From NCBI RefSeq assembly GCF_016587435.1, contig NZ_BNJJ01000018.1, positions 1 through 64,000 on the forward strand: DNA of 64,000 nt, read 5' to 3'. The notes under the pieces were generated by a model. It saw only the letters and a program-made list of their open reading frames with translations, did no database searches and had not been told where the DNA came from. Positions within the stretch are counted from its first letter, which is position 1; the number at the start of each line of letters is the position of its first letter. A program made the translations under genes and the position numbers. This stretch comes from Dictyobacter formicarum. GTDB lineage: Bacteria; Chloroflexota; Ktedonobacteria; Ktedonobacterales; Ktedonobacteraceae. Positions 1,427 to 62,830 of the stretch are shown here, piece by piece.

Positions 1427-2291
1427 GGTATTGTCAACTTGACGGTGTGGCGAAACATGGTGCTAAAATAACCGCATGAAAACAACCATCGTTGCCCCCC
1501 CATAGAAAGGCTTTCGTGACCCTCCGTAAATCATGAGCCACGCCATCTGGCTGTATTTTCGCTTTTCGCTCAGTTTTCGTGATGTCGAAGAACTGCTGGC
1601 ACAGCGAGGGATCGTCGTGACCTATGAAACCGCGTGGCAGTGGTGCTTGAAGTTTGGGCAGACCTCTGCCAATGAGTTACGTTGTCGCCGCCCTCGTTGT
1701 GGCGACATCTGGCACCTGGATGAAGTCTATCTGAAGATGAACGGGAAAACGCACTCTCTCTGGAGGGCTGTAGATCAGGATGGCAACGTGCTCGACATCC
1801 TGGTGCAAAGCCGACGCAACAAGAAGGCCGCGAAACGATTTTTCGCGCCGCGCTTCTCAAAGGGTTACAATACGTTCCACGCGTGATCATTACCGATAAG
1901 CTGAAGAGTTATGGGACGGCGAAACGCGAAACCTTGCCTGGCGTGGAGCATCGTCAGCACAAAGGGGTGAACAATCGTGCGGAAAATTCGCACCAACCTA
2001 CGCGACTGCGTGAAAAGAAGATGCGGCGATTCACGTCTGCCAAACATGCCCAACGTTTTCTCTCTGCTGATCGCGCCCCATTTCAGGGCATTTCCAACCC
2101 CGTTGTCACCGTTTGAGGGCCGAGGAATACCGTGCTATTTTACAGGCTCGCTTTCTGGTGTGGAACGAGATCACCGTAGGAAAACTCATCGCATACTAGT
2201 TAACCCTCCCTCGCATTTCACTGTCTTCAGTCTCTCTCTTCTTTATAACTCAACAATAATCGGCATTCCTAACAAATAAGTTGACAATACC
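1427..2291 (+). mobile_element. IS6-family insertion sequence (GGTATTGTCAACTT ends), degraded
   Basis: An 865-bp element bounded by perfect 14-bp terminal inverted repeats, GGTATTGTCAACTT at 1427-1440 and its complement at 2278-2291. The same ends bound the IS at 53115-54626, mark the fragment at 60102, and occur in a short element at 38741. No clear 8-bp target duplication was found. The right end abuts a group II intron fragment. Confidence 0.85.
1476..2199 (+). pseudogene. IS6-family transposase, degraded
   Basis: Decayed copy of the transposase found intact in coding sense at 53208-54577. The ATG at 1476 opens a frame hit by TAG and TAA codons within the first 20 codons. Good homology runs from SHAIWLYFRF (about 1536) through the DDE region LDEVYLKMNGKTHSLW to ILVQSRRNKKAAKRFF near 1840. 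A frameshift around 1845-1885 moves the rest (IITDKLKSY and NRAENSHQPTRLREKKMRRF) to another frame. Its 5' part has no intron, so it serves as the uninterrupted reference for the intron-bearing copy: the sequence corresponding to codons 10-20 is continuous here. Not expected to be active. Confidence 0.85.
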
Positions 2292-2698
2292 ACCTCGTAA
2301 TGGGAAGCGGTACGAGATACTCTCCCTTTTCTCCCGACGTCCCAGAAAGGACGTAAAAGGAACGAACGGGCACCTAAACCATCTGACTGTCTCAAAAGAA
2401 GCAAAACGGAGATGCCCTACGTCGGAGAGACCCGATAGGGGTACGGAACTTGCATAGTAGTCCGAGACGGTAACGCCGATCACATGGCAAAGGCAAGTAA
2501 GTTGTTCACGTGAGCAAGAGGCCAACGTATGCGAAAGGCAAAAAGCGGAAGCCGAAAGTAAACGACCAGTTCTCTGGGAACAACTGGAGAGCCGGATACT
2601 TGGAAACTTGTACGTCCGGTGTGCGCCGTGAGGCGCTTTGAGATATTCCTGTTACAGACAGGAGGAACTAGGGAGATGTTCTTGAGCCACCAGCTTAC
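2292..2698 (+). ncRNA. Group II intron, 3' fragment (domain V at 2589-2622)
   Basis: This stretch is closely similar to the 3' two thirds of the intron at 53880-54532. It includes the exon-binding segment GAAGCGGT (2304-2311) and a 34-nt domain V at 2589-2622 with the AGC triad and a GAAA-type loop. The last two bases of domain V are GT instead of TC, so the basal helix is weakened. A domain VI region follows and the fragment ends with CTTAC at 2698, the same 3' end as in the other copy. The 5' third, including the 5' splice site, is missing and replaced by the right end of the IS6 copy. No reverse transcriptase is encoded. It is a dead fragment. Confidence 0.75.
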
Positions 2699-38652: not shown

Positions 38653-38740
38653 CGTGCGGTAGCTCTCCCTTTCACGTACCCCCATCCCTGAGAACGAAGG
38701 CGCATCTCTGCTCTAACCTCAAGAAATCTATTACAATGAT

Positions 38741-38904: not shown

Positions 38905-38907
38905 TTC

Positions 38908-39303
38908 TCATGCAAGAAGATTTGCGATCAATTGCAGCAGTGTCTCCAGATCAAAGGGTTTCCGGAGCGTTCTGAGATGATCCAAGGCGCCGCTTTCTTG
39001 TGGCAAATCGGCACTCATCAGGAGGATGGGTGTTTGCTCACCTCCTTCTCTACGCTGCAACTGGTCGGCGAGTTCCAGCCCATTCATCCCAGGGAGATGA
39101 TAATCGAGGAGAAACAAATCAGGCGTGATCGTTTGCAGCATATTCAGCGCCATCTCGCCGCTCGGGGCAAGATGCCCTTGATAGATTGCCTCCTCCTGGA
39201 GCACTTCCAGCAGGAGATTGCCAAGGATGGGATCATCTTCGACAATGAGAATACGCTTGACAGCAAGAACATCACTCCATGCCTGTCGTTGGAACATAGA
39301 CAT
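38908..39303 (-). CDS. Single-domain response regulator
   Basis: 131 residues, only a receiver domain. It shows the acidic pair in ILIVEDDPILGNLL, the phospho-Asp in LFLLDYHLPGMNGLELADQL, the Ser switch in ILLMSADL and the Lys in LRKPFDLETLL. No output domain, so it acts through protein contact or in a phosphorelay. It starts 9 bp after the stop of the 758-residue kinase, in the same direction, with AGGAG at the ribosome site, so the two are co-transcribed and are probably a cognate pair. Confidence 0.94.
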   Translation of the reverse strand: MSMFQRQAWSDVLAVKRILIVEDDPILGNLLLEVLQEEAIYQGHLAPSGEMALNMLQTITPDLFLLDYHLPGMNGLELADQLQRREGGEQTPILLMSADLPQESGALDHLRTLRKPFDLETLLQLIANLLA

Positions 39304-39312
39304 ATGCGCTCC

Positions 39313-41589: not shown

Positions 41590-41819
41590 GCAGTAGTTCT
41601 CCCTTTCATGTGGTCCCATCCCTGGAAGGAAGATGCTTCCCTGCTCTGATATCTCGAAACAGCATTGAGAAATGTGAGAAGACGCGGAACCTCCTTCTCC
41701 GTGAAACTCCTTTCAAGCCCTTCTGTCGAGAGGGCTTGCGCCAGGGTATGCTTGCGCATAGGAACTGTCGGATCCGAAAGGCGACCGGAACGTTTGTTGC
41801 GCGAGGAGGAACCTGCCCA

Positions 41820-42500
41820 GGTGGTACGCAGGCATCGACTGGGCTGACGAAAAGCACGACACTGTGGTTATCGATGATGTCGGCCATCAGCGTGGCACGT
41901 ATGCCAACGCACATTGCCGCTCTGCCTGCATCAAACCATTGCGCCATGCTCCGCAGCCGTTTGCTGGGCAATCCACACGCTCCAAACCTTGGGCATTGGA
42001 GTACTATCAACGCACGCGCTGGCCACTGCCAGCCTCACCGTGTTGCAACCGATTCGAGGCGGGGCCCGTTCCCTCTCGGATCTCAAGCTGCTGGCATTGC
42101 AGCGTCTGGCCGCTGAGCGGATCGGCGTGAAAGACCTGATTCGCCAACGCGGGCTGGTTCTGGAACAAGGCCAATTGATCAAAGCGCTTCGACTCTTGCG
42201 CGAGCATATTGACCAATTGGAGAGCGACATCATCGCGATGGTTGAACAGACGCGCGAAGGGCAGATTCTGCTGTCGTTTCCAGGCTTTGGGCCAATCACG
42301 GCGGTGACGATCAGAGCGGCTATCGGCTCGATCCACCACTTCCCCCTGGCTTGGGCCCTCAATGCATACGTTGGTTGGGCGCCGGTGGTGGCTCAATCGG
42401 GAAGCACCTTGGATGCCTCCTCCTTGACCCGCGGGGGAGCCAGGACGATAAAGCAGATCATGTTGCTGGCTGTCATGCAGGTCATCCGTACAGCACTCGT
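41820..42500 (+). pseudogene. IS110-family transposase, degraded (unit A)
   Basis: Traces of the DEDD N-terminus (WYAGIDWADEKHDTVVIDDV; the start ATG is changed to AGG) and, after a frame change and loss of the middle, the C-terminal IS116/IS110/IS902 domain: ILLSFPGFGPITAVTIRAAI, YVGWAPVVAQSGSTLDASSL, KQIMLLAVMQVIRTAL. The C-terminal tail is cut off there. Twin of 50316-51003. Confidence 0.8.
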
Positions 42501-42526
42501 TGTGCCTGTCATGTGCCTGTCACAAG

Positions 42527-42673
42527 CATCATGGTCATCTCCTCCTTTCCTCATCCTCTACGCGCAAAATGATTTTTCCGCGCGTGTGCCCTTGTCGGGC
42601 CTGCTCAAACGCCTGGGATGCCTCTGAGAGCGGGAAGACCCGCTCGGTGATTGGTCGGAGCTGGCCCGTATCT
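42527..42673 (-). pseudogene. Zinc-type oxidoreductase, C-terminal fragment (unit A)
   Basis: Nearly identical to the end of the intact gene at 51048 (RPITERVFPLSEASQAFEQA). The match stops at 42673, where unrelated sequence and the nitroreductase gene begin. The N-terminal piece of the same gene is at 43592-43675. Confidence 0.78.
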
Positions 42674-42748
42674 GCATGTGTCAGTGTTGCCGGCACCTCA
42701 CCTCTTTAATATTTACCTTTATAAACACCACAGTATAAGCGTTACAGG

Positions 42749-43405
42749 TTAAATAAAGGTAAATAGCTCTTCTTTAGATAATCTGGATTTTGGTGTATGA
42801 ACAGCATGATCTTTCTCAAAGTCGCGATAGCCAAGAGGGAGCAGGACACTGGATGTAAAGCCTTTTTCGCGTAGCCCCAGTTCAGCGTCGAGCCTGCGAG
42901 GGTCGAATCCCTCAAGAGGACTGACATCAATGCCAAACTCAGCTGCAGCAATGAGCAACATTCCCAACGCCATATATGTCTGTTTTTCCATCCAATGTTG
43001 GAGGTCTTTATAGTCGTACTCGTGCAGACTGACCCAATCGCTAGCACTATCTCCCCAGTGTTTTTTAGCAGATGCACTTTTGAACCAACCATCACGCTCT
43101 TCTTTGTCAAGCATAATATCCATGTACCCTGTCGGCAGGCTCATGCGTGTACAAAAAACGATTACATGAGAGGCATTCTCAACCTTCACGGCGTTGACGG
43201 CCTGTTCTGGACGCATTTCTTTCGCGATGCGTTCTTTTCCTTCCTGTGTACTGGCTACGAAAAAATGCCAGGGCTGTACATTCACAGAGGAAGGGCTGAA
43301 GCGCAAAAACTCTAGCAATGTATCTATCGTTTCCTGTGGAATACGACGATCCGGATCAAACGCTTTCGTCATGTGACCAGTTTGGGTAATCTTTGTGAGA
43401 TTCAT
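42749..43405 (-). CDS. NfsB-like oxygen-insensitive NAD(P)H nitroreductase
   Basis: 218 residues from the ATG at 43405; an upstream ATG three codons earlier overlaps the likely ribosome site. FMN-dependent flavoprotein expected to reduce nitroaromatics or quinones using NAD(P)H. Family signatures: FSPSSVNVQPWHFFVASTQE near residue 35, ASHVIVFCTR, WMEKQTYMALGMLLIAAAEF, then SPLEGFDPRRLDAELGLREK and LLPLGYRD. Length and layout match E. coli NfsB (217 residues). An Rrf2-type regulator remnant lies directly upstream. The gene sits inside the broken unit A oxidoreductase. Confidence 0.92.
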   Translation of the reverse strand: MNLTKITQTGHMTKAFDPDRRIPQETIDTLLEFLRFSPSSVNVQPWHFFVASTQEGKERIAKEMRPEQAVNAVKVENASHVIVFCTRMSLPTGYMDIMLDKEERDGWFKSASAKKHWGDSASDWVSLHEYDYKDLQHWMEKQTYMALGMLLIAAAEFGIDVSPLEGFDPRRLDAELGLREKGFTSSVLLPLGYRDFEKDHAVHTPKSRLSKEELFTFI

Positions 43406-43474
43406 GAAGTTCATCCTTATGTTTGTGTTACGAGGCGCTGTTGATGAGGCATCATTGCTGTTTCTTGTGCCTGT

Positions 43475-43675
43475 TCAACAGTATTGCAATGTTTCTTCTA
43501 AGAGATCTGCGACAGTCGTCTGGGCTAGACGCTGCTTCAGAGCATCTTCAGCTTCGCCATAGAAGTGTTTCAGCGCCGTTTGAATACCCCTTCCAACTCC
43601 TGGCTGAGGTTTCGGTGCATCTTCGAACACAAATTGATCGGGTCTGCTCTGACTATAGAGGTGAATAGCTTTCAT
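43475..43675 (-). pseudogene. Fusion of oxidoreductase N-terminus and Rrf2-type C-terminus
   Basis: The first 28 codons (43675-43592, MKAIHLYSQSRPDQFVFEDA) are those of the intact oxidoreductase at 51986. The remaining 38 (QTALKHFYGEAEDALKQRLA, QTTVADLLEETL) resemble the C-terminal helix of Rrf2 or similar regulators. The join falls inside one open frame, so a 66-residue chimera could be made, but neither parent domain is complete. Confidence 0.65.
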
Positions 43676-44003
43676 CTCTCACACGTCTCCTTGTTCTTCC
43701 TCATGCTTCCAGAACATTTCCAGGCTGATCTCTCCAGCAGGACCGACACATGACCAGGTGTCGCGCCGCAGGCGCTGAGAAGTCTTGAGCGAAAGGGCAG
43801 CTTCTGCATGGATATGTACCTGCATGTGGCTCCGAAGTGCTTTGCCTGGCAACAGTATAGAATGATAATGGTCTTGCTACAAGGGCCATTTTATAGGGAA
43901 AGTACGGAGCCATTTTGCTCTGCCAGGTTTTGGAACTGGTCTCTCTCTGGCGAGCGTGCCCTTGGCCGGAGAGGTGCGTTCATCCCCCATCTGTTGCTTC
44001 TGT
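43676..44003. other. Intergenic region, shared with 51987-52313
   Basis: Contains no supported gene. It is nearly identical to the region between the oxidoreductase and the dihydrofolate-reductase-like gene in unit B, and must hold their promoters. Confidence 0.5.
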
Positions 44004-44558
44004 TCATGCCTTTCTCACGCGGAAACGAAGGGTGGTCAGTTGCTCTGCTTGTGAGACGGCTATCGTCTCTCAGGCAACCTGTTCGCCCGCCTTTCGGGCA
44101 AAGAAGCGGACACCATCACCGAGCAAGATGGGCGCTACATACACGAGGATCTCGTCAATCAGCCCTGCCTCGAGACACTGACGGGCAAGGCTGGCACCGA
44201 TGATCAGCAGATTCTTCCCCTCTGTGGCTCGCAAGCCTGTCGCAACTGCGGATCGAATGTCATCCGAGAGGAACATGATCGTCTCATCTTCTTCGTCGTC
44301 AGGTGCGTGATGCGTCAGGACGAACACAGGTCCGATCCAGGCTCCTCCGAAGACCTTCCGATCCACTGGTGGTAGTCCCGGTTTCCGGCCCACATCGTAG
44401 CTCCGTCTGCCACTCAGCACGGCACCTGTCGTCCGGATGACCTGGTCTACGACTGGGTTTGGACCAGCAAATCGAGCTACCCAGTCCATCCCATCGTCTG
44501 GCCCGGCGATAAAGCCGTCCAACGACATGGTGACGTGCCACAAAACTTTCCCTATCAT
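44004..44558 (-). pseudogene. Dihydrofolate-reductase-family protein (RibD C-type), internal stop
   Basis: Begins KVLWHVTMSLDGFIAGPDDG, then GAVLSGRRSYDVGR, VFVLTHHAP and LLIIGASLARQCLEAGLIDE, DEILVYVAPILLGDGVRFF, the pattern of the RibD C-terminal/DHFR-like family. A TGA at 44070 interrupts the frame after GEQVA. The next 21 codons (ETIAVSQAEQLTTLRFRVRK) continue the expected final strand to a TGA at 44004, so the codon was probably Leu. The shortened 162-residue product may still fold. The same stop occurs in the unit B copy. Confidence 0.8.
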
Positions 44559-44562
44559 TTCT

Positions 44563-45477
44563 GGTTGTGTTGCAAGAATGAAGGTACAATGATAAACTCT
44601 GCTTTATTTGGAGCATCGCAGAGGAGTTCTTCATCATGATCGAGCAAACCCCGTTCAAATGGCGTCATTTTGAAGCCAAGATCATTCTTTTGTGCGTACG
44701 CTGGTACTTGCGCTATTCGTTGAGTTACCGCGACCTAGAGGAGATGTTGCTCGAACGGGGTTTGCATGTCGATCACACCACGATCTATCGTTGGGTTCAG
44801 CAGTATGCCCCCGAACTGGAGAAGCGCTGCCGACCGCATCTCAAAGCCTGCAATGACTCGAGGACGCGTGGATGAGACATACATCAAAATCAAAAAAGTT
44901 TGGTTCTACCTCTATCGGGCCGTTGATTCCCAGGGGAACACCCTCGAGTTTCTCTTGAGTCCGACGCGCAATACCGAGGCGGCCACACGTTTCTTCCTGA
45001 AAGCACTGCATTTCTCCACTGATGGAGCTTCTCAAGCTCATCCAGTCGAGGAACAGATGTCCCAGCCCGCGGCTGCGGCCAACCCCGCCATATTAACTCT
45101 TCGAGTGATCAACGTCGATAAGAATGCAGCCTATCCCAAGGCCGTGGCCAACCTGAAAGCCGCTGGAGTCCTGCCTGACCACGTGGAATTGCGACAGGTG
45201 ACATACCTCAACAATCTGATCGAGCAAGACCATCGGTTCATCAAACGCTTGACGAAACCGGGAATGGGCTTTTTCTCGTTCGAGACGGCCTGGCGAACGC
45301 TGCAAGGATACGAGATGATGAACATGCTGCGGAAAGGGCAAATACAAAAGGTGGAAAAGGAGACGTAAAAGGGCAGGCCGCACTGGTCGCCAGACTTTTT
45401 GGAGTTGTTGCCTAAGCTTGAACATGGAGAGGCCTACCATGCTCATCTTGTTTCTTCTCATTTCTTGCAACACAACC
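44563..45477 (+). mobile_element. IS6-family element, unit B copy
   Basis: 915 bp with 16-bp perfect inverted ends, GGTTGTGTTGCAAGAA at 44563 and the complement ending at 45477. Directly upstream of the unit A DHFR-like gene start. No target duplication seen (TCATTTCT on the left, AAGGACAG on the right). Confidence 0.88.
44636..45368 (+). pseudogene. IS6-family transposase, frameshifted (unit B copy)
   Basis: Nearly identical to 34301-35081 and carries the same one-base insertion with TGA after 79 codons. A further small deletion near 45350 shifts the end, so the final residues read QIQKVEKET instead of the LFGVVA end. Confidence 0.9.
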
Positions 45478-45869
45478 AAGGACAGTTGCCGTGGTATGTA
45501 CTCACCAACGAAGCGATCCGCAATGAAGAGGATATGTGGCAGATTGTCTATCGGTATGCGCGACGATGGCAGATCGAGATGACGTGGAGGTACACCAAAA
45601 GTGAGTTGGGCTTTGAAAGTCCACGGTCCTGGAGCTGGGAGGCGCGTCTGAAACTGTTGATGATTGCGACCCTGGCCTTTGCGTTTCTCCTCTCCTTACT
45701 CCAACCCTTCTTCGCAACCGTCCGAGAACATCTGCTCAAGCAGTGGTGTCCTCGGACGGGCGAACGGTATCGTCAGTTTGACGTTCCGCTCTATCGACTC
45801 CGGGAGGCGTTGAGCTTTCTCTGGCTCTACTATCCTCCCAGTGTTCAGCTTTTCCCTTTTTCGGGATGA
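45478..45869 (+). pseudogene. Transposase C-terminal remnant (IS4-like), unit B
   Basis: About 130 codons: PWYVLTNEAIRNEEDMWQIV, YRYARRWQIEMTWRYTKSEL, KLLMIATLAFAFLLSLLQPF, typical of the last part of IS4-type DDE transposases (the YxxRWxIE motif with the catalytic Glu). The IS6 seems to have inserted into or recombined with it. No N-terminal part was found. Confidence 0.72.
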
Positions 45870-45883
45870 TTCATGTAAGTGGT

Positions 45884-48800
45884 TCAAGCGCATCTCATAT
45901 TGGGAAGGGTGACTGTAAAAGTGGAGCCTTTTCCAACCTCGCTCTCCACCGTGATGGTTCCCTTATGATGCTTGACGATCCTGGCTACGATGTAGAGCCC
46001 CATGCCCAGGCCGGCAATCCCTTTCTGCCTGGGATTGGCGACCCGATAAAAGCGTTCAAAGATTTTCTCGCACTGTTCCCGCGGAATACCGAGGCCATGA
46101 TCGCGCACCCGAACTGTGACCACATCTTCAGTGGTGTCCATCTCCACTTCGACCGTCTCTGCCTGAGGAGAGTATTTGATGGCGTTGCTGATCAGGTTGG
46201 TGAAGACCTGTCCCAGGCGGTCTCGATCCCCGATCATGCAGGCCCTCACTGGCGCACGTACCACAATGCTATGGTCTGGATAGCTGTATTGCACGGTGTC
46301 GGTGATCTCCCGGAGGAGTTCGTTAAGATCCACTTGCCCCTGCCGATACTCCAGCTTGCCCGCCTGGATCTTGGAGACATCAAGCAACTCTCCGATCAGG
46401 CGTTCGAGTTGCTTGATGGGTCCCTCCAGGGTGGAAAGCGCTGTGACCACCTCGTCATGTGATTGTTTTTGCTGCCGTCTGCGCATCAACTGGATGTGCA
46501 TCTTCAAGGCCGTGAGCGGATTCCTTAGTTCGTGGCTTGCCATATTGATGAAGTCATCCTTGCGTTGATCGAGTTCCTTGCGCGCCGAATTATCCAGCAC
46601 AAAGCCGATCGCCTGGTGTGGGTCGAGTCGTAAGGCCACAACTCCCACGAGCACCGGCAGGCGGCTGCCATCTTGACAGATATATTCTTTCTCATAAGGC
46701 GCTCTATATTGGTGAACGACAAGTTCCTGGCGTGCCTGCTGGGTGCGAGCCAGGTACTCTGGAGGTGTCATGCGAGCCCAGTTGATGCTCCCGGCACACA
46801 AATCTTCTCGGCTGTAGCCGAGCATGTGCAGATAGGTGTCATTGGCATCCACGACCTGCTCATCTTCGGCGAGAAAGGTCCCAATAATACTGGAGTTCAT
46901 CAGGGCGTTCGCGCGCTCCTGACTCTGGCGCAAGGCTTCCTCCAAGCGTTTCTGCTCGTCGATGTCGGTGCAGGTCCCAAACCACTTGACGATCTGGCCG
47001 CTTTCATCGCGCACGGGCATGGCGCGGGCTAAGAACCAGCGGTATTCCCCGGTCTGGGCATTTCTGAGACGCACTTTGTGCTCAAACATGTCTCCCGTCT
47101 CCAGGGCATGCTGCCAGTGCGCTCGGTGGCCTTCCTGATCATCAGGATGGATGAATTGGAGATGAGCCCATGGGTCGCTTTGCATGTGTTCAGCCGTGAG
47201 CCCGAGGTAGTCACAGCAGCGCTGGTTCACATACTCGTGCCGGCTGTTGGGCCGTCTCACCCACACCAGTTGCGGCACCGTTTCGGCCAGCACGCGCAAG
47301 CTCTCCCGGCTTTCTTTGAGTTGCTGCTCCGCCCGTTTCTGGTCCTCAATGTCGGTGCTGGTGCCAAACCACTTGACGATGTGACCTCCTTCGTCACGCA
47401 CTGGCAAGGCACGGACTAAAAACCAGCGGTATTCCCCGGTCTGGGCATTTCTGAGACGCGCTTCGTACTTAAACATGTCTCCCGTCTCCAGGGCGTGCTG
47501 CCAGTGCGCTCGGTTGCTTTCCCGATCATCAGGATGGATGAACTGGAGATACTCCCAGCGGTCGCTTTGGACGTGTTCAAGCGTGAGTCCGGTGTAGTCA
47601 CACCAGCGCTGGTTCACATACTCGTGCCGGCTGTCGGGTCGTCTCACCCACACCAGTTGCGGCACCGTTTCGGCCAGCATGCGCAAGCTCTCCCGGCTTT
47701 CTTTGAGTTGCTGCTCCGCCCGTTTCTGGCCCTCAATATCGGTGCTGGTGCCAAACCATTTGATGATCTGGCCTGCTTCATTACGCACCGGCAGGCCACG
47801 GGTTAAGAACCAGTGATACTCACCAGTCTGACGATTCTTGAGACGGTATTCGATCTCATAGGGTTCACCCGTTGCGAGTGTCTGACGCCGAAGTGCCAGC
47901 GTACGCTCAATATCCTCGGGATGCACAATCTGGTGCCAGCCATCATCTCGGATGTGCTCAAGTGTGGCCTGAGTATAGTCGCAATAGCGTTGATTCACGT
48001 AGTCAACGCGGCCGTCTGGTTGCGTTGTCCAGACGAGCTGTGGAACGGTTTCGGCCAGCATACGCCAGTTCTCTTCGCTGATTTTGATTCTCTCTTCGGC
48101 CTGTTTCTGCTCCTCGATGTCAGTACAGGTACCAAACCATTTGATGATCTGGCCTGCTTCATTGCGCACTGGCAGAGCGCGGGTTAAGAACCAGTGATAC
48201 GTACCGGTCCGACGATTCTTGAGACGGTATTCATTCTCATACGGCTCACCCGTTTCCAGCGAATGGCGCCGAAGCGCCAATGTGCGCTCAAAATCGGCAG
48301 GATGCACAAACTGACGCCAGAAATCGTCCCCACTGAGCTCAAAATCGGGCTGCATCCAGTCACGATACCGTTGATTCATATACTCGAGACGACCATCGGG
48401 TTGCATCGTCCAGACCAACTGTGGTACCGTTTCGGCAAGCATGCGCCAGTTCTGCTCACTGATTTTGATTCTCTCTTCGGCCTGTTTCTGCTCCTCGATG
48501 TCGGTACAGGTGCCAAACCACTTGACGATCTGACCCCCTTCATTGCGTACTGGGTGTGCACGGGTTAAGAACCAGCGATACTCCCCTGTTTGGCAATTTT
48601 TGAGACGCTCTTCGTGCTCATACATGTCTTTCGTGTCCAGGGCATGTTGCCAGCGTGCTCGATTGCCATCACGATCCTCAGGATGGATGAACCGGAGATG
48701 AGCCCATCGGTCACTTTGTATCTGCTCAAGCGTGACCCCAGTATAGTCACGCCAGCGCTGGTTCGTGTACTCGACCTGACCATCGGGCTGTGCCGTCCAG

Positions 48801-50077
48801 ACCAGCTGCGGCACCGTTTCGGCCAGCACGCGCAAGCTCTCCTGGCTTTCTTTCAGCTGCTGCTCCGCCCGTTTCTGGTCCTCAATATCGGTGCAGGTGC
48901 CAAACCACTTGACGATGTGACCGCCTGCATCGCGCATCGGCATGCCGCGAGCTAAGAACCAGCGATACGCGCCCGTTTGGCCCTCCTTGAGACGATATTC
49001 AATCTCATAGGGTTCTCCCACTGCGAGCGCATGATGCCAGATCGTCAGGGTGTGCTCATAATCGTCAGGGTGCAAAAACTGGCTCCATTCCTCGCCCAAG
49101 GCCTGTTCAGGGGAGGAACCGCTATAGGCATACCACCGTTGATTCCAGTACTCTAAAGCTCCATCTGGGCGTGCTGTCCACACCAACTGTGGCACCGTTT
49201 CAGCCAGCACGCGCAAGTCTTCCTCACTGGCTTTGATTCTCTGTTCAGCCTGTTTCTGCTCATCGATGTCAGTGTTGGTGCCAAACCATTTCAGGATCGT
49301 GCCCTGCGCATCTTTGAACGGCACTCCTCTGGCAAGGGACCAGCGATACTCCCCGGTGGTTCCATTGCGCAGGCGCAGTTCCGCTTCATAGGGCCTGCCT
49401 GCCTGGACGGCGCTCTGCCACACCTCCAGGACACGTTGTTGGTCATCGGGGTGGATGGCCTGGTGGAGCCAACCATCCCCTTGAGCTTGTTCAGAAGTCA
49501 TATTGGTATAGTCACACCAGCGTTGGTTCGTGTATTCACACGAGCCATCGGGGCGCAGCATCCAGACGAATTGGGGGATGGCATCAACCAGGACACGGAT
49601 TTCGTCCTCGACTTGCTTTTTGTCGTGAATGTCGGTGCAGGTGCCAAACCACTTGACGATGTGACCGCCTGCATCGCGCATCGGCATGCCGCGAGCTAAG
49701 AACCAGCGGTACGCGCCCGTTTGGCCCTCCTTGAGACGATATTCAATCTCATAGGGTTCTCCCACTGCGAGCGCATGATGCCAGATCGTCAGGGTGTGCT
49801 CATAATCGTCAGGGTGCAAAAACTGGCTCCATTCCTCGCCCAAGGCCTGTTCAGGGGAGGCGCCAGTATAGTCATACCATCGGTGATTCGAATAGGTCAC
49901 CGAGCCATCAGGTTGGGCTGTCCACACCAACTGGGGCACGGTCTCGGCCAGGACACGAAAGTTCTCCCGGCTTTCTTTGAGCTGCTGCTCCGCACGTTTC
50001 TGCACAGCAATATGCTTGATGAGCGCCTTCCAGAGTGGAAGCGTGAGATGCCTGATCTGTTTTCCATCCAACATCAT
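45884..50077 (-). CDS. Soluble nine-PAS histidine kinase (unit B, 1397 residues)
   Basis: Start at 50077; 50074 is the alternative. Eight tandem PAS_3 units of about 128 residues fill about 30-1050. Each opens with a variant of VLAETVPQLVW and closes with KWFGTxTDI followed by a linker helix. A ninth PAS (RANALMNSSIIGTFLAEDEQ) precedes HisKA (FINMASHELRNPLTALKMHI) and the ATPase domain, which are almost identical to those of the 1098-residue kinase. There are no membrane segments or receiver. Several units are almost identical at DNA level, so the array probably grows and shrinks by recombination. No response regulator lies beside it in unit B; the receiver at 38908 is the nearest candidate. 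Confidence 0.92.
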   Translation of the reverse strand: MMLDGKQIRHLTLPLWKALIKHIAVQKRAEQQLKESRENFRVLAETVPQLVWTAQPDGSVTYSNHRWYDYTGASPEQALGEEWSQFLHPDDYEHTLTIWHHALAVGEPYEIEYRLKEGQTGAYRWFLARGMPMRDAGGHIVKWFGTCTDIHDKKQVEDEIRVLVDAIPQFVWMLRPDGSCEYTNQRWCDYTNMTSEQAQGDGWLHQAIHPDDQQRVLEVWQSAVQAGRPYEAELRLRNGTTGEYRWSLARGVPFKDAQGTILKWFGTNTDIDEQKQAEQRIKASEEDLRVLAETVPQLVWTARPDGALEYWNQRWYAYSGSSPEQALGEEWSQFLHPDDYEHTLTIWHHALAVGEPYEIEYRLKEGQTGAYRWFLARGMPMRDAGGHIVKWFGTCTDIEDQKRAEQQLKESQESLRVLAETVPQLVWTAQPDGQVEYTNQRWRDYTGVTLEQIQSDRWAHLRFIHPEDRDGNRARWQHALDTKDMYEHEERLKNCQTGEYRWFLTRAHPVRNEGGQIVKWFGTCTDIEEQKQAEERIKISEQNWRMLAETVPQLVWTMQPDGRLEYMNQRYRDWMQPDFELSGDDFWRQFVHPADFERTLALRRHSLETGEPYENEYRLKNRRTGTYHWFLTRALPVRNEAGQIIKWFGTCTDIEEQKQAEERIKISEENWRMLAETVPQLVWTTQPDGRVDYVNQRYCDYTQATLEHIRDDGWHQIVHPEDIERTLALRRQTLATGEPYEIEYRLKNRQTGEYHWFLTRGLPVRNEAGQIIKWFGTSTDIEGQKRAEQQLKESRESLRMLAETVPQLVWVRRPDSRHEYVNQRWCDYTGLTLEHVQSDRWEYLQFIHPDDRESNRAHWQHALETGDMFKYEARLRNAQTGEYRWFLVRALPVRDEGGHIVKWFGTSTDIEDQKRAEQQLKESRESLRVLAETVPQLVWVRRPNSRHEYVNQRCCDYLGLTAEHMQSDPWAHLQFIHPDDQEGHRAHWQHALETGDMFEHKVRLRNAQTGEYRWFLARAMPVRDESGQIVKWFGTCTDIDEQKRLEEALRQSQERANALMNSSIIGTFLAEDEQVVDANDTYLHMLGYSREDLCAGSINWARMTPPEYLARTQQARQELVVHQYRAPYEKEYICQDGSRLPVLVGVVALRLDPHQAIGFVLDNSARKELDQRKDDFINMASHELRNPLTALKMHIQLMRRRQQKQSHDEVVTALSTLEGPIKQLERLIGELLDVSKIQAGKLEYRQGQVDLNELLREITDTVQYSYPDHSIVVRAPVRACMIGDRDRLGQVFTNLISNAIKYSPQAETVEVEMDTTEDVVTVRVRDHGLGIPREQCEKIFERFYRVANPRQKGIAGLGMGLYIVARIVKHHKGTITVESEVGKGSTFTVTLPNMRCA

Positions 50078-50315
50078 GCAGTAATTCTCCCTTTCATGTG
50101 GTCCCATCCCTGGAAGGAAGATGCTTCCCTGCTCTGATATCTCGAAACAGCATTGAGCAATGTGAGAAGACGCGGAACCTCCTTCTCCGTTCAACTCCTT
50201 TCAAGCCCTTCTGTCGAGAGGGCTTGAGCAAGGGTATGCAAGGGTATGCTTGCGCATAGGAACTGTCGGATCCGAAAGGCGACCGGAACGTTTGTTGCTC
50301 GAGGAGGAACCTCCC

Positions 50316-51003
50316 ATGTGGTACGCAGGCATCGACTGGGCTGACGAAAAGCACGACACTGTGGTTATCGATGATGTCGGCCATCAGCGTGGCACGTATT
50401 CCACAGCACATCGCCGCTCTGCCTGCATCAAACCATTGCGCCATGCTCCGCAGCCGTTTGCTGGGCAATCCACACGCTCCAAACCTTGGGCATTGGAGTA
50501 CTATCAACGCAAGCGCTGGCCACTGCCAGCCTCACCGTGTTGCAACCGATTCGAGGAGGGGCCCGTTCCCTCTCGGATCGCAAGCTGCTGGAATTGCAGC
50601 GTCTGGCCGCTGAGCGTATCGGCGTGAAAGACCTGATTCGCCAACGCGGGCTGGTTCTGGAACAAGGAAGGCCAATTGATCAAAGCGCTTCGACTCTTGC
50701 GCGAGCCTATTGACCAATTGGAGAGCGACATCATCGCGATGGTTGAACAGGCGCGCGAAGGGCAGATTCTGCTGTCGTTTCCAGGCTTTAGGCCAATCAC
50801 GGCGGTGACGATCAGAGCGGCTATCGGCTCGATCCACAACTTCCCCTTGGCTTCGGCCCTCAAAGCATACGTTGGTTGGGCGCCGGTGGTGGCTCAATCG
50901 GGAAGCACCTTGGAAGCCTCCTCCTTGACCCGCGGGGGAGCCAGGACGATAAAGCAGATCATGTTTCTGGCTGTCATGCAGGTCATCCGTACAGCACTCG
51001 TTG
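50316..51003 (+). pseudogene. IS110-family transposase, degraded (unit B)
   Basis: Twin of 41820-42500. Here the ATG at 50316 is kept (MWYAGIDWADEKHDTVVIDD). The middle is deleted and shifted, and the C-terminal domain (ILLSFPGFRPITAVTIRAAI, YVGWAPVVAQSGSTLEASSL) ends at IRTAL. A short insertion near 50667 adds another frame change. Confidence 0.8.
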
Positions 51004-51047
51004 TGCCTGTCACAAGCATCATGCTCATCTCCTCCTTTCCTCGTCCT

Positions 51048-51986
51048 CTACTCCTCGTTCTCTACGCGCAAAATGATTTTTCCGCGCGTGTGCCCTTGTC
51101 GGGCCTGCTCAAACGCCTGGGATGCCTCTGAGAGAGGGAAGACCCGCTCGGTGATTGGTCGGAGCTGGCCTGTATCTATCAGGTTCCCGATCTGGATCAG
51201 TTGCTCCCGATTGGGTTCAACAATAAACCACACGGACCGCACGCCATGCGCCTTGGCCTGTTCAGTTGAGGGTGGGCTGGCAACGGAGATGAGCATGCCT
51301 CCTTTTTTCACCACTGTCCAGGAGCGCTCCAATGTTTCGCCTCCTACCGTATCAAGAACAAGATCGACATCATGGACGACCTCCTCAAAGCGCGTGGTGG
51401 TATACTCAATGATCTCATCGGCTCCCAACGTGCGTAGGAATGCATGATTGTGTGCAGAGGCTGTCGCGATCACCGTGGCACCAGCCCACTTTGCCATTTG
51501 AACCGCCATGCTTCCCACGCCACCAGCGGCACCATGAATGAGAAGCGATTGCCCACTGGTAAGCCCTGCGTGCTCAAAAAGCGCTTGCCAGGCGGTCAGT
51601 CCAACCAGGGGGACTCCGGCTGCCTGTAGGTGCCCAAGGGTTCGTGGCTTGGGCGCCACATCAGTTGCGCGTGCGACAGTGTATTCCGCAGCCGCGCCAT
51701 CCCGCCAAAATTCGGTGAGCGCATAGATAGCCTCTCCTACGGCGATACCAGTGACGCCGGCCTCCACTTCAACGACCTCGCCAGAAACATCATGACCTGG
51801 TATGGGATGCTGACGTTCGATACCAGCCGGTGTTTTCCAGGTTTCCGGCCAGGTAGGTTCCTGCCACATCACACTGGTCGCATGGACCCGAATCAGGACT
51901 TCTCCCACTCCTGGCTGAGGTTTCGGTGCATCTTCGAACACAAATTGATCGGGTCCGCTCTGACTATAGAGGTGAATAGCTTTCAT
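51048..51986 (-). CDS. Zinc-type alcohol dehydrogenase-like / quinone oxidoreductase
   Basis: 312 residues, medium-chain dehydrogenase fold. N-terminal GroES-like domain (PGVGEVLIRVHATSVMWQEP, PIPGHDVSGEVVEVEAGVTG), NADPH-binding motif (LLIHGAAGGVGSMAVQMAKW) and the C-terminal FPLSEASQAFEQARQGHTRG segment. The zinc-binding cysteines are absent, as in quinone oxidoreductases of the zeta-crystallin type. NADPH-dependent reduction of quinones or enones is likely. This is the complete unit B version; in unit A it is split. Upstream lies the DHFR-like pseudogene on the same strand. Confidence 0.92.
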   Translation of the reverse strand: MKAIHLYSQSGPDQFVFEDAPKPQPGVGEVLIRVHATSVMWQEPTWPETWKTPAGIERQHPIPGHDVSGEVVEVEAGVTGIAVGEAIYALTEFWRDGAAAEYTVARATDVAPKPRTLGHLQAAGVPLVGLTAWQALFEHAGLTSGQSLLIHGAAGGVGSMAVQMAKWAGATVIATASAHNHAFLRTLGADEIIEYTTTRFEEVVHDVDLVLDTVGGETLERSWTVVKKGGMLISVASPPSTEQAKAHGVRSVWFIVEPNREQLIQIGNLIDTGQLRPITERVFPLSEASQAFEQARQGHTRGKIILRVENEE

Positions 51987-52313
51987 CGCTTACCTGTCTC
52001 CTTGTTCTTCCTCATGCTTCCAGCGCATTCCCAGGCTGATCTCTCCAGCAGGACCTACACATGACGCACGAAGTGCCGCAGGCGCTAAGAAGTCTTGAGC
52101 GAAAGGGGAGCTTCTGAATGGATATGTACCTGCATATGGCTCCGAAGTGCTTTACCTGGCAACAGTATAGAATGATAATGGTCTTGCTACAAGGGCCATT
52201 TTATAGGGAAAGTACGGAGCCATTTTGCTCTGCCAGGTTTTGGAACTGGTCTCTCTCTGGCGAGCGTGCCCTTGGCCGGAGAGGTGCGTTCATCCCCCAT
52301 CTGTTGCTTCTGT
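51987..52313. other. Intergenic region, shared with 43676-44003
   Basis: Promoter region of the oxidoreductase; no supported gene. Near-identical to the unit A counterpart. Confidence 0.5.
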
Positions 52314-52784
52314 TCATGCCTTTCTCACGCGGAAACGAAGGGTGGTCAGTTGCTCTGCTTGTGAGACGGCTATCGTCTCTCAGGCAACCTGTTCGCCCGC
52401 CTTTCGGGCAAAGAAGCGGACACCATCACCGAGCAAGATGGGCGCTACATGCACGAGGATCTCGTCAATCAGCCCTGCCTCGAGACACTGACGGGCAAGG
52501 CTGGCACCGATGATCAGCAGCTTCTTCCCCTCTGTGGCTCGCAAGCCTGTCGCACCTGCGGATCGAATGTCATCCGAGAGGAACGTGATCGTCTCATCTT
52601 CGTCGTCGTCAGGTGCGTGATGCGTCAGGACGAACACAGGTCCGATCCAGGCTCCTCCGAAGACCTTCCGATACGCTGGTGGTAGTCCCGGTTTCCGGCC
52701 CACATCGTAGCTCCGCCTGCCACTCAGCACGGCACCTGTCGTCCGGATGACCTGGTCTACGACTGGGTTCGGACCAGCAAATCG
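52314..52784 (-). pseudogene. DHFR-family protein, N-terminus lost (unit B)
   Basis: Twin of 44004-44558 from RFAGPNPVVDQVIRTTGAVL onward. The first 30 residues are gone because the match stops at 52784 at the end of an ISL3-type element. The internal TGA is also present here (52380). Small changes such as Val to Gly (GATGLRATEG) separate it from the other copy. Confidence 0.8.
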
Positions 52785-53114: not shown

Positions 53115-53207
53115 GGTATTGTCAACTTATTCATAAGAGATGAAATATATTGATGAGTTATAACGAGGAAAGATGCTGCAGAGCGAGAGGTGGGGAGATC
53201 ATTACAG

Positions 53208-54577
53208 TTATGCGACCAGTTTTACTCTGGTTACCTCATTCCACGTCTGGAATCGGTCCTGTAAAGTGGCACGATATTCCTGCGCACGCAGACGATGTCG
53301 TCGCGGTTGGAAGTGGCCGGAGATGAGGCCGAAGGCAGAAAGGAAGCGTTGCACCTGTTTGGCTGATTTGAAGCGTCGCATCTTCTTCTCTCGGAGCCGC
53401 GTGGGTTGGTGCGAGTTTTCCGCCCGGTTGTTGAGCCCCTTGTGCTGTCGATGCTGCACTCCAGGTAGAATCTCACGTTTCGCCGCAGCATAACTCTTCA
53501 ATTTATCAGTGATGATCACGCGGGGGACGTATTGGAGCCCTTTGAGGAGTTTCCGAAAGAAACGTTTCGCCGCTTTTTTGTTTCGTCGGCTCTGAACCAG
53601 AATGTCGAGGACGTTTCCCTCTTGATCGACTGCTCGCCATAGATAGTGCCTCTGGCCACGGATCGTGAGAAAGACCTCGTCCATATACCACTTGTCACCG
53701 CAACGAAGGCGACGATGGCGTAGTTCGTTGGCGTATGTTTGTCCAAATTTGAGACACCACTGACAGACGGTTTCATAGGTCACGATGATCCCGCGCTGTG
53801 CCAGAAGTTCCTCCACATCGCGAAAACTGAGCGAGAAGCGAAAATACAGCCAAACAGCATGGCTGATGATTTCAGTCGGGTAAGGTGGGATCACAGCGCC
53901 TTCTCCCAGATGGGGAGGTTTCTGCGATCCTCCTTCCGAACCGGACGTACAAGTTTCCAAGTATCCGGCTCTCCAGTTGTTCCCAAATAACTGGTCGTTT
54001 GCTTTAGGCCTCCGCTTTTTGCATTTCGCATACGTTGGTCTCCTGCTCACTTGAACAACTTACTTGCCTTCGCCATGTGATCGGCGTTACCGTCTCGGAC
54101 TACTATGCAAGTTCCGTACCCTTATCGGGTCTCTCCGACGTAGGGCATCTCCGTTTTGCTCCTCCTGAGACATTCAGATGGTTTAGGTGCCCGTTCGTTC
54201 CTTTTACGTCCTTTCTGGGACGCCGGGAGAAGAGGGAGAGTATCTCGTACCGCTTCCCATTACAAGATACTTCTTCTCCATGGACGTTTCATTCAGCCTT
54301 CGTCCACCCGGGCTATTACGGCCAAGAAACTGGTGTTCAAGCAATTCAGCTTTCACCATGCCATCTCTTCGTCTTGCATCACGATCTTTTCGCTGAATCC
54401 TAGAACTGATGCGTTCTTGACATGCTGTGTTCCCTTTTAACGTTTCCATCTCCGGTAAATCAGGTGACGATACGAGATCTCTCCGCTCGTAGCTCCCTTG
54501 GGAGCGTTCTCAAGAGGACTCTACGGACGCACAAAGCGGTGGCCTTTGTAATTGGGGGAAGTGGCGTTTGTTTTCAT
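53208..54577 (-). CDS. IS6-family transposase, split by a group II intron
   Basis: Exon 1 is 54577-54533 (15 codons, MKTNATSPNYKGHRF) and exon 2 is 53879-53208 (223 codons from PTEIISHAVWLYFRF). Joined in phase 0 they give a 238-residue transposase of normal length. It has the HTH (SFRDVEELLAQRGIIVTYET), the DDE core (DKWYMDEVFLTIRGQ; VIITDKLKSYAAAKREI; NRAENSHQPTRLREKK) and the usual C-terminus. The frame that continues from exon 2 into the intron up to 54050 is intron sequence, not protein. If the intron splices, this gene is functional; no maturase is encoded nearby. Confidence 0.88.
53880..54532 (-). ncRNA. ORF-less group II intron
   Basis: 653 nt. The 5' end is GTGCGTCCGTAGAG (consensus GUGYG) at 54532. 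The 3' end is CTTAC at 53880. Domain V (53938-53971) is exactly 34 nt, with GAGCCGGA pairing to GTCCGGTTC, the AGC triad and a GAAA loop; domain VI follows. The candidate exon-binding site GAAGCGGT (54249-54256, minus strand) pairs with ACCGCTTT, the last 8 nt of exon 1, with one G-U. No reverse transcriptase or maturase frame fits inside. The exon junction is continuous in the homologous IS at 1476. Confidence 0.9.
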
Positions 54578-54806
54578 GCAGTTATTTTAGCACAATGTTC
54601 AGTTCCGTTATCAAGTTGACAATACCTTTCATCCATCATATCTGATGAGTTTTATTTTTGCAACACAGCCCATTTTTTCACACTCATTGCTTTGAGGACA
54701 TATCTTCAATGTACTTTGAGCATACTTTATCGTCGAACTTTTGATAAATTCATGGACGGGGCTTTCTCGACATATTCTCTGTAAAAATACTGCTAAGAAA
54801 CGCTGG

Positions 54807-54866
54807 TTCAGCTATATCGGCACCATTCTATACCTCGAGGTATAGAATGGTGCCGATATAGCTGAA
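54807..54866 (-). terminator. 60-bp perfect palindrome after the ABC operon
   Basis: TTCAGCTATATCGGCACCAT at 54807 begins a 60-bp sequence that is its own complement, with TCGA at the centre. The 30-bp arms have no mismatch. It lies 35 bp after the stop of the last transporter gene. On the leftward strand a TATTTTTAC tract follows about 15 nt later. A terminator for the operon, perhaps bidirectional, is the likely role. Confidence 0.65.
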
Positions 54867-60101: not shown

Positions 60102-60605
60102 GGTATTGTCAACTTAACCAGAGAAATGAAGATTATTGCTGAGTTATAGTGAAGAAGGATGCTGATGGGTCATGGAAGATATGGGGGATACCTCTGGTTA
60201 TGCGAATCGCTTTGCTCCAATCACTTCATTCCATGTTTGAAATCGGCCCTGTAAAAGGGTACGATATTCCCCGGCAGTCAAACGGTGACGTCGCGGTTGG
60301 AAATGCCCAGCAATGGGGCCGAAGGCGGAGAGGAAGCGTTGGGCCTGTTTGGCTGATTTGAACCGCCGCATCTTCTTTTCACGCAGTCGGGTGGGTTGGT
60401 GGGAATTTTCTGCCCGGTTGTTCAATCCTTTGTGCTGCCGATGCTCGACGCCAGGCAGGATCTCGCGTTTCGCTGCGCCATAACTCTTCAGTTTATCCGT
60501 GATGATCACGCGTGGAACGCACTGGAGCCTTTTGAGGAGCTTCCGAAAAAAGCGTTTCGCTGCTTGTTTGTTCCGTCGGCTTTGGACAAGGATATCCAGC
60601 ACGTT
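60102..60605 (-). mobile_element. IS6-family fragment (GGTATTGTCAACTT end)
   Basis: One end, GGTATTGTCAACTT, is at 60102; the homology stops near 60605 where sequence of the neighbouring rve-type element begins. About 60% of the element remains. Confidence 0.8.
60198..60602 (-). pseudogene. IS6-family transposase, C-terminal half
   Basis: 134 codons from LDILVQSRRNKQAAKRFFRK to the normal C-terminus (RFQTWNEVIGAKRFA). The HTH and first catalytic Asp are missing. Very close to exon 2 of the intron-bearing copy at 53208. Confidence 0.88.
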
Positions 60606-60665
60606 GCTGTATGCAGTTGGTCCCTCGTCTCCCGGTCAGATCGAGCACCTTGTGTCCCTGCCCTT

Positions 60666-61970
60666 TCAGGATGAGCTAAGCGCGCGAACCCGCTGTCGCC
60701 GCTCTTGCAAAGATCGAAGACGATGTTCGGCTCGCGCCTGTTCTTGGATCTGTTGCACATACTCCGCAAACGGGAGCGCGCCTTTTGACCAAGCAGGCAC
60801 GGGCAGTACTTTGAGGATCTGCCCCTCGCCCCACAAAACCAATGTCGCTTCCGCTGCATTCAGATGGACCGTGATGAGTTGTCCGCGCCATGCCTTCCCC
60901 ACATAATACCGCTTCAGGTCTAACTTGATCCGTCCAGCGGCATCCACGCGACGACGGAAGACCTGTTGTGGTTCATGGTGCAGCCAGGCCAAGGGGTCTA
61001 CCGCAGTCGGCAAGGCTGGTAAAGAGGATGTTTCGCGCAATCGCTCTGCTGGAGGCCGATCCAGCAGAGCGCGTCCCTGGTGCGGGCGCTCGTGATTGTA
61101 GAAGGTCTCAAAGGTGGTGAGAGCTTGCTGGGTCTGCCCGGCTGTGCTGGGACGTTCGACCTGCAGACATTCTTGCTTGAGTGTGCGATGAAACCGCTCG
61201 ACATACGCGTTTTGTTCGGGATGCTGCGGATCACAGACATGCATGTCGATATTCAGACAACTCCCAAAGCGCAACAAGGCCGAACAAAAATCACTGCCTT
61301 GGGGACTGCCGACAAAGCGGGGATCGCGGTCCAAGGTGATCTGCTGGGGCACGCCCCAGCGTTGCATGGCATGGACCAACGCTTCAATGACCGTCTCGGC
61401 CGTAAAGTCATGGCGCACCTCGGCATGCAGCCAATACGACGAGCCTTGATCAACCACATTGAAGATTTCCAGGCGGTGCTGCTGCTTGCCTTCGGGTTCG
61501 ATGTCAGCGCTGCCCACATCTTTGAAGTCAATCTGCCACTGCCGCAACGGCTCCACTGGCTCCAGTGGCTCATGGTGGGGCTGCTGCCGGGGAACAATAT
61601 ACCTGAAGAGGCATAAATAGCGATAGATCGTACTGCTTGCCGGTGGTGTGTAGGTCGCTTCTCCTGCATGCACCTGCCGTCGCAAATACGTCCGAATCGT
61701 GCGTGGACCGGCTACCCGATGCAACTGCTCCGCAAGCTGTTCTCGCAGCGTCACAATCTGCAGAATCTCATCAGGAGAGAGGGAAGGTGATGGGGTTTTG
61801 CGGGCACAGGAGCAACCTTGTAAGATCACATAGACCTCCTCGAAAGGGGCATTGAGATAGGGACGCAGGCGCCGTCTCCAGTTTTTGACCCAACTTTCCG
61901 ACATCCCTGTCTCCTTGACCAATTGCGCTTGCTTCCACTCCGGATGACGTTGTAACAGACTATACAACAA
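60666..61970 (-). CDS. Integrase-core (rve) transposase, IS481-like
   Basis: 434 residues. HTH region at the N-terminus (EWKQAQLVKETGMSESWVKN). Catalytic rve core: first Asp in LRQWQIDFKDVGSADIEPEG, second in QITLDRDPRFVGSPQGSDF, Glu in NAYVERFHRTLKQECLQVER. The C-terminal Mu-transposase-like beta domain (IKLDLKRYYVGKAWRGQLIT) is present. The start at 61970 is the first Met of the frame but a better one may lie just upstream. Intact frame, so possibly active. Its 3' side joins the IS6 fragment. Confidence 0.85.
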   Translation of the reverse strand: MLYSLLQRHPEWKQAQLVKETGMSESWVKNWRRRLRPYLNAPFEEVYVILQGCSCARKTPSPSLSPDEILQIVTLREQLAEQLHRVAGPRTIRTYLRRQVHAGEATYTPPASSTIYRYLCLFRYIVPRQQPHHEPLEPVEPLRQWQIDFKDVGSADIEPEGKQQHRLEIFNVVDQGSSYWLHAEVRHDFTAETVIEALVHAMQRWGVPQQITLDRDPRFVGSPQGSDFCSALLRFGSCLNIDMHVCDPQHPEQNAYVERFHRTLKQECLQVERPSTAGQTQQALTTFETFYNHERPHQGRALLDRPPAERLRETSSLPALPTAVDPLAWLHHEPQQVFRRRVDAAGRIKLDLKRYYVGKAWRGQLITVHLNAAEATLVLWGEGQILKVLPVPAWSKGALPFAEYVQQIQEQARAEHRLRSLQERRQRVRALSSS

Positions 61971-62093
61971 GAGGCGTTTGGGATAGGATGGATGCAGTGC
62001 GCTTGCTTACTGCCGGAGAGTTGCTTGAAGAGCAACACGTAAGCAGTCGTGTTAGGGGTAAGTGGCATGCGTTTGAAAGTGGCAATTTCAGAG

Positions 62094-62678
62094 GTGTGAA
62101 GCCCATTGACAATGTACCGATTGACCTAGCCAGGGGAAAACAAAGGGCTACCCCTGCGGCCTATGTTGACGAGAGGAACCTTCGTCTGAAGCGTCGTTAT
62201 CCTAGAGGGGTGAAACTGGCTGATACACCCTGACCAAAATGGTAAGGCGACGGCCTAAACGCTTGCATCTCGTTTGGGACTGCTTCCTGGCTCGCCCGGC
62301 GTAAAGAAGGCAACTACGGGTCGCTATGACACTTTCCGGTGGGAAGACAAGGAACTCTCATACCGCTTGACCGAAAGGAAGCGAAAATGCCAGCTTGCGG
62401 GAGAGAGGACGGAGGCGGCGTAGTAGTCAAATGCTCCTCTGTAATGGAGGAGACAAGGCGAAGGTCCGCCAGGGTAAGTCCAAAGAAACGAGGAAAAAGG
62501 AGTGAACCGGGAAATGCAGATGACGGTGGATTTTCCACTGGTGCGTCCTGGGACGATCTAGCAATCGCCAACTCTCCACCTGGGAGTATCTGGACCCAAC
62601 CGGAAAGCCGGATGCCGAGAAATTGGCCTGTCCGGTTTGGAGCGGGGGAAAGGTCGAAAGGTCCTACCTATCGCTACT
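62094..62678 (+). ncRNA. ORF-less group II intron, second type
   Basis: Begins GTGTGAAGCCCATTGACAA at 62094 (consensus GUGYG). Domain V at 62605-62638 is exactly 34 nt: AAGCCGGA pairs with GTCCGGTTT, with the AGC triad. Domain VI follows, and the 3' end lies near GCTAC at about 62678. The middle is unlike the intron at 53880, so it belongs to another lineage. A short frame just upstream of domain V (DDGGFSTGASWDDL) resembles the N-terminus of intron-encoded proteins; the rest of that protein is absent. Confidence 0.75.
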
Positions 62679-62830
62679 GGCGATACTCCCTGGTTGTGTT
62701 CAGTGTAAATGACGTTTGAGCAGAGCGTATCGCTTTTTCCTCTGGATTTCCAGGGGTTCGATGTCGTCGGACACCCCGGGAGACGAGGGACCAACTGCAT
62801 ACAACCCCTCATGAGTATGCCTTCTCTGGT

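Follow-up and report, generated by a model that had tools for sequence, protein, structure and literature searches.

The group II intron RmInt1 of Sinorhizobium meliloti resides in the insertion sequence ISRm2011-2, where, according to the accessible text of PMC4238363, less than 1% of the exons are correctly spliced in vivo. The authors of that study regard the low level of splicing as a brake on the IS, and the same text also mentions transposase and integrase genes as sites of other class D introns (PMC4238363). The genome of K. racemifer, as far as the accessible part of its description goes, contains 601 transposase genes and 34 reverse transcriptase (RT) genes (PMC3236041). No group II intron in a transposase of the IS6 family or of the Ktedonobacteria was found among the literature matches listed, a set with subscription papers mostly outside it. 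Transposases of insertion sequences whose synthesis requires the splicing of an intron are already known, RmInt1 in ISRm2011-2 being the example. The intron described here, which lies in a 64,000-nucleotide stretch of DNA (the window), probably from the Ktedonobacterales, is another case; it adds a well-preserved ribozyme intron in a transposase gene, from a group lacking such a description among those matches.

The intron occupies 653 nt, positions 53880-54532 of the minus strand, and is ORF-less, without an RT gene. The element that carries it and the related sequences in the window have the following features.

53115..54626, minus strand: IS6-family insertion sequence carrying the intron, with 14-bp perfect inverted repeats
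54533..54577, minus strand: exon 1, transposase codons 1-15 (MKTNATSPNYKGHRF)
54533-54540, minus strand: IBS1, the last 8 nt of exon 1, pairing with EBS1
54257, minus strand: proposed delta base G, which precedes EBS1 and pairs with the first exon-2 base, C
54249..54256, minus strand: EBS1 (GAAGCGGU), intron positions 277-284, pairing with IBS1
54004..54024, minus strand: likely RT start remnant, ATG CAA AAA GCG GAG GCC TAA (MQKAEA, stop)
53940..53973, minus strand: domain V, 34 nt with an AGC triad, placed by Rfam and by direct reading
53880..53939, minus strand: domain VI and the 3' end of the intron
53208..53879, minus strand: exon 2, transposase codons 16-238 and the stop
1427..2291, plus strand: degraded IS6 copy, uninterrupted at the intron site
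2294..2620, plus strand: second copy of the intron, present as a fragment (intron positions 267-593), 94.5% identical over 327 nt
60102..60605, minus strand: 3' part of a third IS6 copy (78% over 506 nt), cut by an IS481-like element

The 3' part of the intron (53880-53973, minus strand) matches the full Rfam Intron_gpII model (RF00029, model positions 1-77) with a score of 55.9 bits, the cut-off being 40, and an E value of 2.8e-8. The match terminates precisely at the proposed 3' splice site and shows the conserved sequence and structure of domains V and VI. Group II introns begin with GTGYG and end with AY. Read from the letters, the 5' end is GTGCGTCCG and the 3' end is CCCACCTTAC, which agree with this consensus as GTGCG and AC. 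The earlier note had proposed a group II intron at this place and had named the Rfam covariance search as a check; the match above the cut-off, the two ends and the 34-nt domain V with its AGC triad bear the proposal out. An A at 53886, 7 nt from the 3' end of the intron, is present in all eight aligned introns and is likely to be the branch point. Domain IV is reduced to a remnant. Where an intron-encoded RT/maturase would be expected, the intron has only MQKAEA followed by a stop, which resembles the MQ(N/E/K/S)A(E/D) starts of the RTs of relatives and is likely to be what remains of an RT start.

Joining of exon 1 to exon 2 gives 238 codons followed by a stop, with no internal stop. The intron is situated in phase 0, directly after Phe15, between codons 15 and 16. 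The joined transposase scores 223.6 bits against the NCBIfam model NF033587 (transpos_IS6; cut-off 125) over residues 10-202, and 134.2 bits against Pfam DDE_Tnp_IS240, where the DDE match begins at residue 77. The phase-0 placement and the restored 238-residue IS6 transposase, as claimed earlier, are confirmed by this stop-free join and by the family score. Unspliced reading from the exon 1 ATG halts after MKTNATSPNYKGHRFVRP, the fourth intron codon being a stop.

The inverted repeat GGTATTGTCAACTT is found at 54613-54626 (minus strand) and 53115-53128 (plus strand); the element thus has the short terminal inverted repeats of the IS6 family, 14 bp long and perfect. With up to two mismatches allowed, the repeat was found seven times in the 64-kb window, compared with 0.35 expected, and all seven matches are perfect. 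An 8-bp target duplication is a trait of the IS6 family. None was seen around 53115-54626 when the flanks, which differ, were compared by eye; it is possible that the duplication was lost by recombination. The same perfect 14-bp repeats bound a stretch of 162 bp at 38742-38903, too short for a transposase, which is a possible MITE of the IS6 element. About 180 nt beyond the left end of the IS there is a 60-nt perfect palindrome (54807-54866; 30-nt arms, no loop), seen as a self-match. Repeats that include multi-PAS histidine kinase genes occupy 34257-52784, with a maximum of 99.7% over 887 nt between 34257 and 44592.

The degraded copy at 1427-2291 reads through the junction, in agreement with the earlier observation that it is continuous there: the nine codons around the junction are equal in length, and a TAA replaces Glu18 of the window transposase. 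The fragment of the second intron copy starts 2 to 3 bases past the end of this IS6 copy and, on its right side, diverges within the last bases of domain V. It is already 5.5% different over 327 nt, showing that the window intron is not newly arrived in its host. The element that cuts the third IS6 copy has 28-bp inverted repeats at 60608-60635 and 62776-62803, and its IS481-like transposase frame (60666-61970) scores 127.5 bits, the cut-off being 224. The same element also contains another group II intron, distinct from that at 53880-54532 (about 61997-62677, plus strand; Rfam, 59.2 bits), which is located antisense to and just upstream of the transposase frame. Its length is insufficient for an RT gene, and a similar piece occurs on one Deinococcus plasmid (24% of the query, 81.9%). 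This intron, the intron fragment at 2294-2620 and the IS6 part at 60102-60605 go beyond what the earlier note had described.

Relatives of the transposase were collected in one scan of a genome collection, which confirmed 97 stretches and, from the best 80 of these, gave 78 loci. The closest ones among the matches listed belong to Ktedonobacter, Dictyobacter and related genomes and are at most 89% identical across the whole protein. Codons 10-22 are uninterrupted in 61 copies, situated in 58 of the 78 loci from the best 80 of 97 stretches; one of the other 20 loci, L045, spans the site but its protein alignment is gapped there, and 19 stop short of the required coverage of the site. The window intron had no match at E 1e-5 in these 78 IS6 loci (best 80 of 97 stretches), and therefore its spread among IS6 copies elsewhere was not seen. 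Since 61 relatives are gapless and the 78 loci gave no match to the intron at this threshold, it is the window copy that deviates, and no exon bases were removed or added on insertion. Upon searching plasmids with the intron, 16 records were retrieved, none of them covering 80% of the query; the matches are 49 to 91 query bases long and situated around domains V and VI. The whole IS, searched against plasmids in strict mode, retrieved two Skermanella records at 4%. A narrow test of IMG/VR with one exact domain V pattern gave no match. That the open frame arose by chance was also considered and is rejected by the Rfam match, the controlled covariation described below and the 61 continuous relatives.

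The EBS1 sequence GAAGCGGT, at 54256-54249, pairs with ACCGCTTT, one of the pairs being G.U. A random exon reaches the EBS1 score against the 21-nt loop with a frequency of 0.0033, and pairing of all eight fixed-column positions (delta and seven of EBS1) has a chance of 0.0005 when the letters are assumed to be equally likely. The exon-binding site that had been suggested at 54249-54256 is upheld by these frequencies, all eight positions pairing when the delta neighbour is counted. A delta base beside EBS1 is a feature of subgroup IIA introns, and pairing of delta with the first exon-2 base is found here. No EBS2-IBS2 column fitted all members when the hairpin before EBS1 was searched by eye in the alignment.

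The guides were compared across seven introns residing in three host types (parA, IS3 and IS6), EBS1 being assigned to alignment columns by eye. Each intron pairs with its own exon at 8, 7, 7, 6, 7, 8 and 6 out of 8 positions (mean 7.0), whereas pairing with the exons of other host types has a mean of 2.2 and a maximum of 5. All seven have a delta pair, whose letters follow the host: U-A in each of five parA genes, G-C for IS6 and A-U for IS3. When unbroken pairing of at least 4 bases was demanded, as a stricter test, two of the seven failed, the parA introns of genomes G030 and G032. When EBS1 and delta of the window intron are set against the 61 intron-free IS6 targets, 8 of 8 positions pair in 19, 7 of 8 in 36 and 6 of 8 in 6. 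The exon base at +1 is C in every one of the 61. A G in EBS1 faces each of the third-codon positions -1, -4 and -7, where the targets show mostly C/T variation and are paired in 61, 59 and 61 of 61, respectively. At position -1 there are 21 T and 40 C, all paired by G; an A would pair with 21. Mispairing occurs mostly at -8, which is unpaired in 38 of the 61 targets. Because of the G opposite -1, -4 and -7, EBS1 tolerates synonymous C/T differences and can pair with most IS6 relatives, and it appears tuned to synonymous change.

A predicted fold of 154 pairs is shared by seven distinct introns in their domains I to III. Pairing is retained in 96.6% of cells of this fold, compared with a mean of 85.3 for shuffled alignments and 34-41 with the partners slid. 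The covariation score was reached by none of 500 shuffles; related sequences can outscore all shuffles, and a structure tends to beat its slid versions simply through having been derived from the sequences. The number of pairs with double changes is a safer measure of the fold, and amounts to 71 of 154, compared with a mean of 32.4 after shuffling and 11-19 after sliding. The earlier note had made its claim depend on a fold consistent with group II introns, and by these counts such a multi-domain structure with covariation is present. A composite of all domains, including V and VI, has 194 pairs, 86 of them with double changes, from eight sequences of which two are near-identical and without a control. 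The window intron keeps 174 of the 194 composite pairs and loses 20. Projected onto the window intron (637 of 653 nt), the composite fold has an energy of -118 kcal/mol, compared with a free minimum of -218 kcal/mol. Across three kinds of host gene, the family keeps one fold while re-aiming EBS1 and delta, and it is well suited for testing how intron guides switch targets.

The unusual extras lie in the relatives, namely RT-bearing introns in the P-loop of parA and, in genome G030, introns in the start codon of an IS3 element. The order was searched at the DNA level in 47 genomes, seven of which contain relatives of the intron at E 1e-8. Five RT-bearing copies, from five genomes, are inserted in phase 0 into ParA-family genes (L120, L121, L128, L130 and L131), between GGVG, which is GGVT in G030, and KTT, in the codons of the Walker A motif, or P-loop. 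The joined protein of G005 matches Pfam AAA_31 with 217 bits. None of the listed NCBIfam models reaches its cut-off on either of the two joined proteins scanned, so that the ParA family can be assigned, but not which ParA. The joined frame of G032 has an early stop. The YADD motif is retained in four of the five RTs and absent from that of G006. The G030 parA-intron RT scores 313.3 bits against TIGR04416 (cut-off 300), and its best match among solved structures is LtrA (434 bits, residues 5-601). Two inner nodes of the intron tree have 64% support, so that the RT gene may have been lost once or twice.

Three ORF-less introns of G030 (L126, L139 and L140), each 679 nt long, reside in IS3-like elements with an OrfA (HTH_Tnp_1). 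The junction splits the OrfA start codon between A and TG, with AGAGAGG upstream in exon 1; the intron ends in T, giving TTG if it is unspliced. Upon pairwise comparison, the introns are identical at 679, 677 and 677 of 679 positions (99.7-100%), the left exons at 46/50, 48/51 and 47/50, and exon 2, over its first 105 nt, at 96, 100 and 97. The long exon 2 of two copies is identical at 1158 of 1190 positions; one of the three copies has an internal deletion. Overall, the exons are 91-97% identical between copies. Since the introns match far better than the exons, their travelling together with the IS is rejected, and separate homing, or conversion, is preferred. An exon-2 search of G030 found the IS3 at three places, all three intron-bearing, so that OrfA would come only from intron-bearing copies, though a distant relative could help. 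Removal of the intron is needed to unite the ribosome site with the ATG in all three copies found, which makes this IS3 a clean case for asking whether splicing sets the transposition rate.

Across the order, Intron_gpII matches number at least 364 (summed) in 26 of the 47 genomes, where at most 78 candidates per genome were scored and G003 reached 78. From these, 80 intron ends were picked by hand, many of equal score and most of those in fragmented genomes being omitted. An RT lies upstream of 49 of the 80 (tblastn with five RTs), and 31 are without a detected RT within 2.9 kb; some of the 31 may be broken introns or have an RT farther away. Exons were joined for 10 of the 31. Four of the 10 were scanned with Pfam, and all four match transposases (one IS110, two TnpB and one DDE), a result from which no transposase rate is derivable because the four were chosen for long joined frames or for their transposase look. 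A Pfam domain crosses the junction solely in L188 (IS110) and L202 (TnpB), both with ORF-less introns in phase 0.

Matters of observation are the anatomy of the window intron, its precise in-phase site, the fold shared by the family, and how EBS1 and delta match the exon. As to its origin, the intron probably belongs to an LtrA-like lineage of mobile group II introns, from which it differs by loss of the RT gene, and probably reached the IS6 transposase gene by retrohoming. Insertion would have been RNA-guided, between the conserved Phe and Pro codons. The maturase, which would fold and splice the window intron in trans, would come from an RT-bearing relative at another place in the genome, and the full 238-residue transposase would be made from spliced RNA alone. 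As proposed for RmInt1, the intron would gain a dispersed target in many copies, and the IS would pay in reduced transposase output. Transposase synthesis by the element probably requires RNA splicing. The earlier note had put forward a splicing-dependent IS, and this is still the most likely reading; it is weakened by the frame that is open from 54050 into exon 2, from which a product without residues 1-15 is possible. Its further suggestion, that splicing is a layer of control over the IS, is not new, since the accessible text of PMC4238363 already makes this proposal for RmInt1 in ISRm2011-2 and accompanies it with in vitro experiments. By analogy with RmInt1, splicing of the window IS may likewise be low and act as a brake on it.

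Such low splicing leads to a different interpretation, possible though unlikely, in which a dead or very poorly splicing insertion put this copy of the IS out of action, too recently for the exons to have decayed. In its favour, RmInt1 itself ligates below 1% of exons in ISRm2011-2 in vivo (accessible text of PMC4238363). The window moreover has a single complete copy of the intron, the second being broken, and 20 composite pairs are missing from the complete copy. However, domain V, the A of domain VI and the EBS1/delta pairing are all intact, and the 5.5% difference of the copy at 2294 over 327 nt argues against recent arrival.

It is improbable that the transposase is made from unspliced RNA with a start inside the intron, for example at GTG 53894, after AGAAGG, or at GTG 54050, and hence lacks residues 1-15. 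The frame is indeed open from 54050 to the stop at 53208, and loss of these residues may be tolerated, as most of the protein lies in exon 2 and the DDE match runs from residue 77. Nevertheless, inspection by eye reveals no ribosome site before 54050, and the IS6 family model covers residues from 10 onward. The AAGGCG stretch before 53894 is common to all eight aligned introns, and its likeness to a ribosome site therefore need not be functional. That the intron is no independent mobile element here but a mere passenger of the IS, within whose inverted repeats it sits, is very hard to credit, given that the fragment at 2294-2620 lies outside all three IS6 copies seen and that the G030 introns are near-identical across IS3 copies with differing exons.

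Returning to a retrohomed intron spliced in trans, it is conceivable, but doubtful, that one maturase of the Ktedonobacterales, encoded in the ParA P-loop intron, serves the ORF-less copies in both the IS6 and IS3 transposases. If so, chromosome segregation would be linked to transposition, with IS activity depending on a protein from the intron of a ParA gene, and splicing of ParA would have to work, its P-loop codons being interrupted by the RT-encoding intron.

The window intron resembles RmInt1 in ISRm2011-2 in being a group II intron in an IS transposase gene, with intron stops that would make splicing necessary; it differs from RmInt1, which the accessible text groups with class D, in lacking an RT, in having relatives with an LtrA-like RT and in residing in an IS6-family host (PMC4238363). 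The ORF-less TeI3 introns of Thermosynechococcus elongatus, as far as the accessible text describes them, likewise have a deleted ORF with its ends still visible, occur in multiple copies, form families with different EBS sequences and targets, and are mobilised in trans by a related RT (PMC2882425). Few TeI3 introns are within genes in that text, whereas the hosts here are transposases, with the RT-bearing relatives in ParA-family genes (PMC2882425). The family shares with Ll.LtrB/LtrA of Lactococcus lactis the match of the G030 RT to LtrA and the delta base beside EBS1; unlike Ll.LtrB, the window intron is without an RT; it is a candidate member of subgroup IIA. The element is also like the IStrons, in that an intron and an IS are combined in one element. 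However, the IStrons, in the accessible text of their description, are group I introns that form one composite mobile unit, whereas here a group II intron has, by the reading favoured above, homed into an IS (PMC4227781).
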